NCBI GenBank assembly: GCA_002841115.1
Contig: PHEC01000042.1
Coordinates: 1 to 36,147, forward strand
Length of the DNA: 36,147 nt
Direction of reading: 5' to 3'
Origin: Alphaproteobacteria bacterium HGW-Alphaproteobacteria-6
GTDB taxonomy: Bacteria; Pseudomonadota; Alphaproteobacteria; Rhodobacterales; Rhodobacteraceae
This document shows positions 19,750 to 24,379 of this stretch, one piece after another. The translations under genes and the position numbers were made by a program. The stretch's first letter is position 1; each line of letters starts with the position of its first letter. The notes below the pieces were generated by a model that was not told the DNA's origin, ran no database searches, and saw only the letters and a list, made by a program, of their open reading frames with translations.

Positions 19750-20408
19750 GCGGGTTCCTCTCCCGGTGGCACCGGCCTTTCCCATGCGTGGAGAATTCGC
19801 CGGATCGCAGGCCATCTGGCCCCGGCAAGGCGGGAACTGAGCGCCTGAGGTGAAATCCCGAGCGTCGCGGCGATTGCGGACTGGGTCGGGGCGTCGGGCG
19901 CGATCGCATGGGCTACCGCCTCGGCCTGTTCGGGCGTCCAGTCGCTGATCCGGTCGTCGAGAAGGCCGAAGAATGCCGCGCGAAGCGGGTTGATGCGGTC
20001 GCCGGCCAGTCGCAGCCGCTCGCCGCGAGCCATGCCGGCGAGGGCGCGGCCGGAGACCACGAAGGCCGCGCCGTGGGCGTCCGAGAGATCCGGCCCGGGG
20101 ACGTGATCGACGGATGCCAGACCAACGGCGATCCGGGTCGAGGGCAGGCCGGGAACGCCGGCGAGCCGCGCATACATCGACAGCGCCGCGCGCAGCCCGA
20201 AATGCCCGAGAGTGACAAGGATTTGCCAGCCATCGCCACGATAGCGCGTGAACCTGGTCGCTTCGACCGCGGTGTTTTCAGTGATATGCCAGTCCGCGAT
20301 GTCGGTGGCCGCGGCCGACAACACCTCCATTGCGCGGTCTATGCTGTGCGGGCTTGCCTCTGTCGAGGCCACAAGGTCGCCGGTTAGAACCGCCTGGATT
20401 GCTGTCAT
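19746..20408 (-). CDS. SatD-like protein: cyclase-like fold plus C-terminal HTH
   Basis: 220 residues. The N-terminal 135 follow the layout of class III nucleotidyl-cyclase domains: GDLVAST (10-16, first metal Asp position D11), YRGDGWQ (56-62, second Asp D59), RIAVGLASV (92-100) and HGAAFVVSGRALAGM (112-126). The substrate-selecting residues are not clearly conserved, so catalysis is doubtful and ligand binding more likely. Residues about 174-200 (TQSAIAATLGISPQALSSR) form a helix-turn-helix. The SatD name is a family resemblance. ATG 20408 abuts an array of three identical-geometry palindromes, its likely own operators. Coupled to DUF3307. Confidence 0.75.
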   Translation of the reverse strand: MTAIQAVLTGDLVASTEASPHSIDRAMEVLSAAATDIADWHITENTAVEATRFTRYRGDGWQILVTLGHFGLRAALSMYARLAGVPGLPSTRIAVGLASVDHVPGPDLSDAHGAAFVVSGRALAGMARGERLRLAGDRINPLRAAFFGLLDDRISDWTPEQAEAVAHAIAPDAPTQSAIAATLGISPQALSSRLAGARWPAIRRILHAWERPVPPGEEPA

Positions 20409-20409
20409 G

Positions 20410-20485
20410 TCAAGCCATCATGGTTGATCTCTTCAGATCAAGCTATATGACTTGATATCTAAAAAATCAAGCCTTTTTGCTTGAT
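20410..20485. promoter_or_regulatory. Three tandem palindromic operators upstream of satD-like gene
   Basis: TCAAGC-N8-TTGAT occurs three times with identical arm spacing at 20410-20428, 20438-20456 and 20467-20485. The repeats are offset by 28 and 29 bases. The spacers differ, so this is not simple duplication. The array fills the 76-base gap between the SufT-like stop and the satD-like ATG and is the AT-richest stretch nearby. It probably binds the SatD-like HTH protein for autorepression. Confidence 0.75.
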
Positions 20486-20850
20486 CACATGAAGCCCAGT
20501 TCCAGCCGCGCCTCGTCCGACATCATGTCCATGCCCCATTGCGGCTCGAAGGTCATCTCGACATCGACCTGCTTCACCCCGTCGAGCGGCTCGACCGCAT
20601 CGGCGACCCAGCCCGGCATCTCGCCGGCCACCGGGCAGCCGGGCGCGGTCAGGGTCATCACGATGTTGACCGCGTTCTCGGGCGAGATGTCGATCGTGTA
20701 GATCAGCCCGAGGTCGAAGATATTGACCGGGATTTCCGGGTCATAGACGCTGCGACAGGCATCGACCACGCGCTCGTAGAGCGGGTGCTGCGTGCTTGAG
20801 GGGCGGATCAGCGGTGCCCCTTCGATCGGGTCCTTGGGTTCTGCGGTCAT
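20485..20850 (-). CDS. SufT-like MIP18/DUF59 Fe-S assembly protein
   Basis: 121 residues. It belongs to the DUF59/MIP18 family, which helps in Fe-S cluster maturation. DPEIPVNIFDLGLIY (about 40-54) and the conserved cysteine in TAPGCPVAG (about 72-80) are clear. ATG 20850 starts MTAEPKDPIEG with GGAAGG upstream. The frame stays open into the repeat at 20953 but that part is not coding. Its stop codon overlaps the last base of the third operator of the satD-like gene. Placement after a suf operon beyond the window is likely, though the upstream neighbour here is tgt on the other strand. Confidence 0.9.
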   Translation of the reverse strand: MTAEPKDPIEGAPLIRPSSTQHPLYERVVDACRSVYDPEIPVNIFDLGLIYTIDISPENAVNIVMTLTAPGCPVAGEMPGWVADAVEPLDGVKQVDVEMTFEPQWGMDMMSDEARLELGFM

Positions 20851-20869: not shown

Positions 20870-22372
<1,503 letters not shown>

Positions 22373-22686
22373 CAGGCTGCCGAAAAAGCACTTCGGGCAG
22401 TGTCTGGCGGGGAAACTGTTCCTGCCCCGCCATCCGATCCCGGCGCCGAGGGCCGCGCCCGACCCTGGGTGGGCGCTTTGCCACGCCGGGGTTGCGGTGC
22501 TTTATCGTAACCAGACCACTCCAACCGTCGAGCACTTTGCGACATTGCAATGCGCCCTCCCGCCGGGAGGGTCGGGCGCGGCCCGGGCTGGTCGCCCGGG
22601 CCAGAGCTTGTGGAAAGCGTTGCGAGGAACAATGTCCCGGGATTCTGGATTGAAACGTTCAGACGCCGGACTTTTTCAGCAGCCTG
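22373..22686. mobile_element. MITE-like element, 314 bp, with TIRs and TTAG duplication
   Basis: The left end CAGGCTGCCGAAAAAG and the inverted right end CAGGCTGCTGAAAAAG agree at 15 of 16 bases. TTAG flanks both sides (22369-22372 and 22687-22690). There is no transposase. Inside, CCGCGCCCGACCC (22453-22465) is the inverse of 22569-22581, and two more perfect hairpins occur at 22555-22571 and 22580-22602. The termini resemble those I associate with IS1182-type elements, but this is recall. Related copy at 20953-21208. Open frames inside it are not coding. Confidence 0.8.
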
Positions 22687-22814
22687 TTAGAGCATGTCGC
22701 GCAAAAGTGGGAACCGGCTTTGCGCTACTCGGACATGCGAAATCAAAAGGTTAGAGCATGTCGCGCAAAAGTGGGAACCGGTTTTGCGCTACTCGGACAT
22801 GCGAAATCAAAAGG
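22687..22814. repeat. 64-bp palindromic unit in tandem
   Basis: Two units (22687-22750 and 22751-22814) differ at one visible base (CCGGCTTT against CCGGTTTT). Each is an imperfect palindrome: GCATGTC pairs with GACATGC and GCGCAAAA or CGCAAA with the opposite TTTGCGC, around GTGGGAACC. It resembles the abundant GTGGGAACCGGTTTT palindromes of alphaproteobacterial genomes. The second unit is inside the ppx frame and encodes its last residues. The MITE-like element seems to have inserted at the TTAG that begins the first unit. Confidence 0.85.
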
Positions 22815-24379
22815 TTAGAGTGGGTCGCGTGAATGCGAATGAACGCGATCCGCCGCGCCTGCGCGCCGAGGGAATCGGCCAGCGACTGGAACCGCGCCTG
22901 GGCGACCTCGCCGAACAGGGCTTCGGCATCCGCGGTGATCTGCAATTCGAGGATCTTCTTCTTCGGCTGCCAGACCAGCGTGCCGGCCTGTTCGGGGGCG
23001 CGGATCGCGAACATCGCGCCAAAGCGCATCGCCTTGCCCAGCACTTCGGCTTCCTGGATCTGCTGGGGGTCGAGCAGCGAAAAGAGCGGCTCCATCCGCG
23101 ATCCGGCGCGCGAGTTCTTGTAGCGGTGCAGCAAGGCGAGGCCAAGGAACACCCGTTCGGGGTGGCTGAGCCCGCCGAGATTGGCGCGGGTGGCATTGTC
23201 GAAACAGGCCTCGGCCCGGTAGTCGGGATGGGCCCGCCAGGTGGTGTCGTGCAGAAGGCAGGCCGCCTTGACCATCCGCAGCCGCGCCGGGCTGGCCGAG
23301 CGGTAAAGCGGCGTCAGGAAGGCAAAAAGCTTCTTGCCGAAGCCGGGCATCCTGGCGGCGGTCTTCTCGGCAAAGCGGCAGGCCTCGATCAGCGGGTCGC
23401 GGCGGCGCAGCCGCTCGGGCATCTGCTCGTAAAGCAGGCCCTCGCGGATGCCGTAGGCCGAGACGTCGATTTCCTTCGGCCGGAACGTCAGCACCATCTG
23501 GCGCAGCACCTGGGCGGCCAGCGGCACCAGCGCCATCCGCGCCGCCGAGGTGCCGGTGCGCGCCCTGAGCGCCGCAAGGTCGCTTTCGGCGATCCAGTGC
23601 GCGGTCTGCAGCACCGATTTCGGCCCCATCCGGTATTCGTGCAGCACCGTCATCGGATAGGCCCGCCGTTCCATGTCGAGCCGGGCGAAGGCGCGCCACG
23701 AGCCGCCGACCAGATAGATCCGCTCGTGTTTCGTGCCGATCTCGGCGGCCAGCCCCTCGACGGTGCGGCGGATATGGGCGGCAAGCCCCTTCTGGCCGCC
23801 GCCGACCTCCTGCAGCCGGAACGGACCGAGCGCCGAGGTCAGGCGTCGGCCGATCTGCCCGCCCGAGACCTCGGCCAGTTCCATCGAGTTGCCGCCGATG
23901 TCGCAGACCAGCCCCTCGGCGCCGGGCCAGCCCAGCAGCACGCCCTGCGCCGACAGCCGCGCCTCCTCGCGCCCGTCGATGACCCAGAGCTTCAGCCCGG
24001 TCGCCGCCTCGACCTCGGCCTGGAACTCGGCCCCGTCGGCGGCCTCGCGCACCGCGGCGGTGGCAACGCAAGTGAGGTCGGGCAGGTCCATGCCGCGGGC
24101 CAGCGCGGCAAAGCGGCGCAATGCCGCCAGCGCGCGCACCCGGCCCTCGGGGTTCAGCCGGCCACTTTCGGCAAGGCCCTGGCCAAGCCCGGCCAGCACC
24201 TTTTCATTGTAGAAATAGGCCGGGCTGCGCGCCGCGCCGTCAAACACCACCAGCCGGACCGAGTTCGAGCCGACATCGACGACGCCGACCCGGCTGAGGG
24301 CGCGCGCCGAGGGGTCCTCGAACAGCGGCCGGCCGAAGGGGCCGGTCTCGTCGGTGCTGTCCTCGATGGTCGTGTCCAT
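22751..24379 (-). CDS. ppx: Ppx/GppA family exopolyphosphatase
   Basis: 542 residues. It hydrolyses polyphosphate ends or pppGpp and belongs to the ASKHA fold. GVVDVGSNSVRLVVFDG (about 32-48) and VCDIGGNSMELAEV are the two nucleotide/phosphate loops, and a C-terminal HD-like helical part follows (CLLHDTTWRAHPDY). The last 20 residues (LISHVRVAQNRFPLLRDML and the Leu before) are encoded by the palindromic repeat unit, so the original C-terminus was probably changed. It follows ppk by 48 bases and likely forms an operon with it. Specificity between polyP and pppGpp is not decidable from sequence. Confidence 0.9.
   Translation of the reverse strand: MDTTIEDSTDETGPFGRPLFEDPSARALSRVGVVDVGSNSVRLVVFDGAARSPAYFYNEKVLAGLGQGLAESGRLNPEGRVRALAALRRFAALARGMDLPDLTCVATAAVREAADGAEFQAEVEAATGLKLWVIDGREEARLSAQGVLLGWPGAEGLVCDIGGNSMELAEVSGGQIGRRLTSALGPFRLQEVGGGQKGLAAHIRRTVEGLAAEIGTKHERIYLVGGSWRAFARLDMERRAYPMTVLHEYRMGPKSVLQTAHWIAESDLAALRARTGTSAARMALVPLAAQVLRQMVLTFRPKEIDVSAYGIREGLLYEQMPERLRRRDPLIEACRFAEKTAARMPGFGKKLFAFLTPLYRSASPARLRMVKAACLLHDTTWRAHPDYRAEACFDNATRANLGGLSHPERVFLGLALLHRYKNSRAGSRMEPLFSLLDPQQIQEAEVLGKAMRFGAMFAIRAPEQAGTLVWQPKKKILELQITADAEALFGEVAQARFQSLADSLGAQARRIAFIRIHATHSNLLISHVRVAQNRFPLLRDML

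Follow-up and report, generated by a model that had tools for sequence, protein, structure and literature searches.

One-component regulators that control their own synthesis from operator arrays form a familiar class, in which a helix-turn-helix (HTH) gene lies under repeated dyads in its own promoter. Two further kinds of described system bear on the locus considered here, namely the class III nucleotidyl cyclases (Ma1120, Rv1900c, Cya2 and PycC) and Pycsar, presented in PMC11224242 as a pyrimidine cyclase working with an effector that is often a membrane protein. The locus lies in a stretch of 36,147 nucleotides from Alphaproteobacteria bacterium HGW-Alphaproteobacteria-6 (contig PHEC01000042.1), hereafter the window, where three dyads precede a gene for a SatD-like protein. 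Judging from sequence comparison, these dyads are very probably sites for the operon's own regulator, the SatD-like protein itself. A literature search, with most subscription journals outside its reach, found no description of this regulator, of its array or of a cyclase-type SatD.

On the minus strand, a sufT-type gene is followed by a 76-bp gap, the satD-like gene and a DUF3307 gene (Table 1). The sufT-type gene is the usual neighbour, its C-terminal motif being found no more than 195 bp upstream of satD in 48 of 51 loci, and it is not thought to be the target of the array. Farther along the window, a 192-bp direct repeat with 90% identity (20966-21157 and 22439-22630), which is a dispersed element, flanks a gene within 20870-22372 that looks tgt-like by eye, and positions 22686-22813 hold two tandem copies of 64 bp, with 98% identity, next to the gene at 22751-24379.

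Table 1. Features of the satD-like locus and its operator array (window coordinates)
Feature	Coordinates	Strand	Remarks
satD-like gene, 220 aa	19746..20408	-	class III cyclase-homology domain and C-terminal HTH
cyclase-homology domain, about residues 1-150	19959..20408	-	class III cyclases matched by Foldseek and HMM; aspartates D11 and D59
helix-turn-helix core, about residues 176-196	19821..19883	-	outer operator base varies together with residue 187
DUF3307 gene, long form, 239 aa	19030..19749	-	PF11750 at 41 bits (cut-off 23); ATGA overlap with the satD stop
sufT-type Fe-S assembly gene	20485..20850	-	TIGR02945 at 146.3 bits (cut-off 143.4)
putative operator dyad nearest the start codon	20410..20427	.	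TCAAG/CTTGA with one arm mismatch; ends 1 bp before the start codon
putative middle operator dyad	20438..20455	.	perfect TCAAG-N8-CTTGA
putative operator dyad adjoining the sufT-type stop codon	20467..20484	.	perfect; minus-strand T run follows

Exact copies of TCAAGC-N8-TTGAT stand at 20410-20428, 20438-20456 and 20467-20485, their starts being spaced by 28 and 29 bp; the only other one in the window is the opposite-strand reading of the last dyad. The symmetric unit is an 18-bp dyad, TCAAG-N8-CTTGA, which is perfect in the middle and sufT-side copies and carries a single arm mismatch in the copy nearest satD. Together, the three dyads fill the 76 bp between the sufT-type stop codon (20485-20487) and the satD-like start (20408). 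The preliminary description was therefore accurate in reporting three copies of identical geometry, 28 and 29 bp apart, that take up the whole intergenic region before the start codon. Chance as the origin of the array is rejected, for its chain score is 13.2 and the highest score among 5,000 dinucleotide shuffles is 5.9. Recent duplication is rejected as well, because the 8-bp spacers of the three dyads differ while the arms and the 29-bp spacing are kept in relatives, which upholds the earlier attribution of the array to selection. The estimate of close to three helical turns per repeat, by contrast, has to be corrected: at 10.5 bp per turn, 29 bp make about 2.76 turns, and adjacent dyads therefore point to different faces of the DNA.

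Conservation before orthologues had been named beforehand as a check, and it was followed in 118 non-redundant loci: 52 of a first set, from which two loci with only partial weak matches (L045 and L046) had been dropped, and 66 of a second set, made up of the best 80 of 230 from named genomes plus L078, i.e. 81 loci before 15 duplicates were removed. With a threshold that was passed by 0.5% of shuffles and by six of 113 control segments, an array scored before satD in 107 of the 118 loci (the second set being drawn from the best 80 of 230 plus L078), so that the expectation was not refuted; seven of these 107 carry arrays both there and in the gap between satD and DUF3307. In four of the 118 (L023, L042, L078 and L127) an array scored in the latter gap only, and in the remaining seven no array scored at all, although two of these, L020 and L022, show one by eye in the satD-DUF3307 gap. 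The upstream region of L041, whose protein row begins at a downstream start, was shifted by hand for this scoring and is absent from the palindrome count over 51 regions and from the arm comparison; the automatic register of that comparison was wrong for L013, L056 and L059. Palindromes with 5-bp arms peak at a spacer of 8, there being 77 of them in 51 upstream regions, compared with 7.25 +/- 2.63 over 100 shuffle rounds and with seven in the control segments. When no spacing rule was imposed, the distances between like dyads fell mostly at 29 bp (126 cases), followed by 28 (25) and 30 (8), and again at the double period of 58 (41), 57 (14) and 56 (6), with 15 other distances between 24 and 60. 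Since the half-site itself changes among relatives (TCAAG, GCAAG, GCAAA, GCAAC, GCAGG, GAAAG and ACAGG), this peak means that the 29-bp phase as such is conserved. The final 18-mer stops 2 bp short of the start codon in 42 of the 107 arrays before satD, compared with 1 bp in the window.

How widely is this gene distributed? Of 198 genomes of the family, 40 carry relatives of the SatD-like protein (two of them through partial weak matches only), as do 17 of 61 relative genomes, both nearer and wider. The family profile matched 75 of 244 genomes of the order at E <= 0.001, some of them through the cyclase or the HTH part only. Among 289 class-wide genomes 12 matched, three of them at full length, all in the window's family. 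Three contigs labelled as Gemmatimonadetes/Gemmatimonadales MAGs (L135, L173 and L178) also carry a satD-like gene, two of them with arrays, reflecting either horizontal transfer or mis-binned contigs.

Which protein would recognise a half-site that drifts in this manner? A pointer comes from residue 187 of the SatD-like protein, where the recognition helix starts: Arg187 is paired with an outer G in 69 loci and any other residue with T or A in 39, and with two discordant cases (L122 and L123) the count stands at 108 concordant loci out of 110 callable ones. In this count the tie, L117, was left out, and L056, L059 and L040 were put in register by eye. The rule dates from the first 52 loci; 65 further loci came later, of which 38 and 19 agree with its two halves and two disagree (57 of 59 callable loci), one is a tie and five are without an array. 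Mapped on a tree that leaves out the HTH, the two traits change no fewer than eight and nine times. Well-supported branches provide three independent pairs that differ in residue 187, in which the operator changes in the same direction 3.0 times on average over 200 pairings and never in the opposite one, and a sign test on these three pairs is not significant (median p 0.25). Given so few independent pairs, shared ancestry explains part of the 108/110 agreement; a second trait, linking residue 192 with the fifth base, was picked after the data had been seen and carries no weight. Half-sites that track the recognition helix make the SatD-like protein the likely binder. This agrees with the autoregulation proposed earlier, as does the HTH that had been assigned to the gene product, which is found by the family profile, the window protein alone falling below the Pfam cut-off. 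The natural series of half-sites (TCAAG, GCAAG, GCAAA, GCAAC, ACAGG and others), together with the matching helices, also offers a ready set for working out a DNA-recognition code.

The other end of the protein is of a different kind. The whole-protein predicted model has a mean pLDDT of 95.4, and Foldseek returned 28 matches to it at E <= 0.001, 27 of them class III cyclase chains and one a GGDEF domain (E 3e-5 to 1e-3, probability 1.00, TM by target up to 0.63), with the cUMP synthase 7r65 at rank 8. The family HMM finds the cyclase Ma1120 (E 6e-4, residues 2-99), with D11 and D59 aligned to both metal aspartates, and it also matches MarR-type HTHs (residues 153-203). The predicted model thus assigns the N-terminal part to the class III nucleotidyl-cyclase fold, and the two metal aspartates are retained. 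D11 is present in all 117 rows that have a residue at this place and D59 in 118 of 118, as are W61 and G120; R55 occurs in 117 of 118 and R121 in 63 of 118, and a GDGWQ loop is nearly invariant in the 118 loci. Arg55 stands at what we take, from the general class III motif, to be the place of the class III substrate lysine, and the transition-state asparagine is apparently absent (the HMM alignment ends at residue 99). The change from Lys to Arg and the apparently missing Asn point to a pocket for binding more than to a standard cyclase, and since Arg121, considered here for the transition-state arginine, is likewise kept in no more than 63 of 118, the domain may lack a working cyclase activity.

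The second gene of the operon was examined in the 52 loci of the first set and in six distant loci considered below (L184-L189), gap lengths being taken from the start codon nearest the match. The preliminary description had run satD and DUF3307 together under one name; DUF3307 is a separate, next gene and seemingly a target in its own right, since some relatives have an array before it. A DUF3307 frame follows satD in 51 of the 52 loci, and the remaining one, L016, is cut short and has a similar beginning. The gap between the two genes measures at least 37 bp in 13 of the 52 loci, and in nine of these 13 it holds a second scoring array with the same kind of arms, versus none of the other 39 (Fisher p 2e-7); L024 and L058, also with gaps of at least 37 bp, show no array there, and in L041 a dyad pair overlaps the gene end. 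Arrays thus mark both promoters, the one before satD and the one in the satD-DUF3307 gap. If the genes overlap, as they do in the window, a single array can serve the two of them. The predicted model of the DUF3307 product is all-helical (pLDDT 93.7) and its sequence hydrophobic by eye; it is probably a membrane protein. Neither a PDB fold match to the model (best E 0.97) nor a PDB match to the sequence at E <= 1 was obtained. PF11750 occurs in 76 of the 198 family genomes, as the long form next to satD and as shorter open frames elsewhere. A tblastn search of phage records gave no DUF3307 match at E <= 0.01, and one list of annotated genes, in PMC8504454, includes a jumbo-phage ORF annotated as DUF3307.

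The array, its conservation and phasing, the co-variation with the HTH and the predicted fold are what is seen here, and from them we infer binding, a dimer, repression, a ligand and an output, as parts of one circuit. The SatD-like protein would bind the dyads through its C-terminal HTH, probably as one dimer per dyad, and neighbouring dimers, one every 29 bp, would wind round the promoter and shut it. Their binding may be cooperative, as the preliminary description suggested. The array would most likely repress the satD-DUF3307 operon, because it abuts the start codon, where RNA polymerase must act. The cyclase-homology domain would keep a pocket for metal and nucleotide and would most likely sense, less likely make, a nucleotide, whose presence in the pocket would set operator occupancy and, with it, the amount of DUF3307 protein. 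We hold such a one-component regulator, repressing its own gene and DUF3307 and sensing a nucleotide through a cyclase-type pocket, to be highly probable.

Could the same protein bind the same array to a different end, either as an activator or as a working cyclase, the actual signal being its product? The nearly invariant metal aspartates and GDGWQ loop are expected of an enzyme just as they are of a sensor, and a cUMP synthase ranks among the top eight fold matches. Activators, however, rarely bind directly at a start codon, which is where these sites lie, and Arg55 at the lysine place and the apparently absent asparagine, both located from the general class III motif, speak against catalysis. 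The activator or active-cyclase alternative accordingly has a minor though appreciable chance of being right.

It counts against the proposed circuit that no consensus sigma-70 promoter was found in the window. When 81 relatives are aligned by their last site, T reaches 65% and A 81% at positions 8-9, and a TTG in the arm of the preceding site is 17 bp apart from this TA core, giving a -10/-35 register that ends at the start codon; only 28% and 38% of the rows match TATAAT and TTGACA, respectively, in four or more places, and in the window the register is weak. From this pattern we infer a candidate promoter inside the array. With the last dyad 1-2 bp before the start codon there is no room for a ribosome site, which suggests a leaderless transcript; leaderless mRNAs are reported from alphaproteobacteria (PMC3616915).

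The same stretch invites a reading at the level of RNA, in which the dyads are hairpins (a terminator of the sufT-type gene, an attenuator or a satD leader) and not DNA operators. A 92-nt RNA from it folds better than shuffles (z -3.99), which is nevertheless expected of any dyad array, and the scan called 20465-20486, the sufT-side dyad with its minus-strand T run, terminator-like. Tails rich in T, with at least five T in 8 nt, come after 32% of the 107 first sites, 17% of the 82 in the middle and 3% of the 107 last ones, and the sufT-side dyad may combine an operator with the terminator of the upstream gene in one element. Hairpins, however, need neither shared arms nor a fixed 29-bp phase nor a link to the HTH, all three of which are observed; arrays recur in satD-DUF3307 gaps, and no Rfam family matches 20300-20700 at E <= 1. 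As a replacement for operators bound by the SatD-like protein, hairpins are thus very improbable.

Scans made without reference to genes bear on the specificity of the array. Two CAAG-N8-CTTG dyads at 28-30 bp from one another, taken as a strict pattern, occur in 13 of 198 whole genomes, in 12 directly before a satD-like gene, compared with three of 198 for the reversed control. In the window's own assembly (3.77 Mb, 87% complete) the strict double pattern occurs once, as the window array, and the exact dyad at one other place (C189), inside an open reading frame. Allowing one mismatch yields 99 dyad matches in this genome, against 66 for the reversed control. With the double pattern single and 99 matches set against 66, a many-site regulon was rejected, which leaves room for a few extra sites beyond the matches listed. 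That another regulator, for instance an Fe-S regulator of suf genes, owns the sites is the least probable alternative of all, for although the sufT-type gene is the usual upstream neighbour, the arm sequence follows the HTH of the adjacent SatD-like protein, three loci without an upstream sufT motif (L021, L028 and L044) still score arrays, four loci by score have theirs before DUF3307 alone, and the sole strict array away from satD among the 198 genomes (G056) lies inside an open frame.

Is the design of a SatD-like regulator with its phased array confined to this family? The window protein does not match PF16264 (SatD) at E <= 1, the best of 52 family members reaches 16.4 bits where the Pfam cut-off is 29, and neither the 61 relative genomes nor the control genomes contain a PF16264 match at E <= 0.001. 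Profile-profile comparison by hhalign with four SatD proteins is nonetheless collinear and near full length (98.5% probability, 199 columns), the E-value being pairwise and the second alignment having only four rows, so the earlier label 'satD-like' holds in the sense of a remote kinship. Across the phylum, PF16264 matches six of 349 genomes, four over the cut-off, these four being the SatD proteins just compared, and all six distant SatD-type loci have a DUF3307-related frame just downstream (HMM E <= 3e-11), at full length in L188 and L189 and with the C-terminal half only in L184-L187, which suggests that this half of the long DUF3307 protein is the core partner of SatD. Array-like dyads precede four of the six genes: in L184, L185 and L186 none of 1,000 shuffles each reaches the score (the starts used for L185 and L186 being internal Met codons chosen by hand), and in L187 the array is weaker, with 25 of 1,000 shuffles reaching it. 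L188 (124 of 1,000 shuffles) and L189 have no scoring array in the 130 bp searched; L188 does contain a perfect pair of TCACA-N8-TGTGA dyads at a distance of 28 bp, of which the more remote lies outside these 130 bp. The array design may therefore be a property of SatD proteins at large. It is conceivable, if somewhat short of an even chance, that SatD-type proteins are widespread one-component factors with a class III nucleotidyl-cyclase domain as sensor, in which binding of a nucleotide or second messenger at a conserved two-metal site gates a 29-bp-phased array controlling a DUF3307 membrane effector.

For SatD and DUF3307, an uncharacterised pair, the proposal supplies a testable circuit with a regulator, an operator, a target and a nucleotide-type sensor pocket. 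On the wider reading of SatD-type proteins, a cyclase fold would have been turned into a DNA-bound nucleotide switch; housed in a transcription factor, such a fold would bring second-messenger enzymes and gene regulation together within a single protein. With Pycsar the locus shares a cyclase-type protein encoded beside a probable membrane protein, and it differs by its HTH and operator array; among 52 SatD-like and 49 DUF3307 members PADLOC found no Pycsar model at E <= 1. An anti-phage system was considered and rejected, the PADLOC matches being weak for the SatD-like members and limited to one at E 0.56 for DUF3307. The class III nucleotidyl cyclases resemble the SatD-like protein in predicted fold and in both metal aspartates, whereas the SatD-like protein is fused to an HTH, has Arg55 where Lys is expected and apparently lacks the Asn. 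With the autoregulated one-component regulators the satD-like array has in common an HTH gene and repeated dyads in its own promoter; it departs from them in keeping a 29-bp phase while the half-site changes and in serving a protein with a cyclase-type sensor domain. Autoregulated operator arrays are already known; the variant described here combines a tight array that drifts in sequence yet stays in phase with a probable sensor of the cyclase type.
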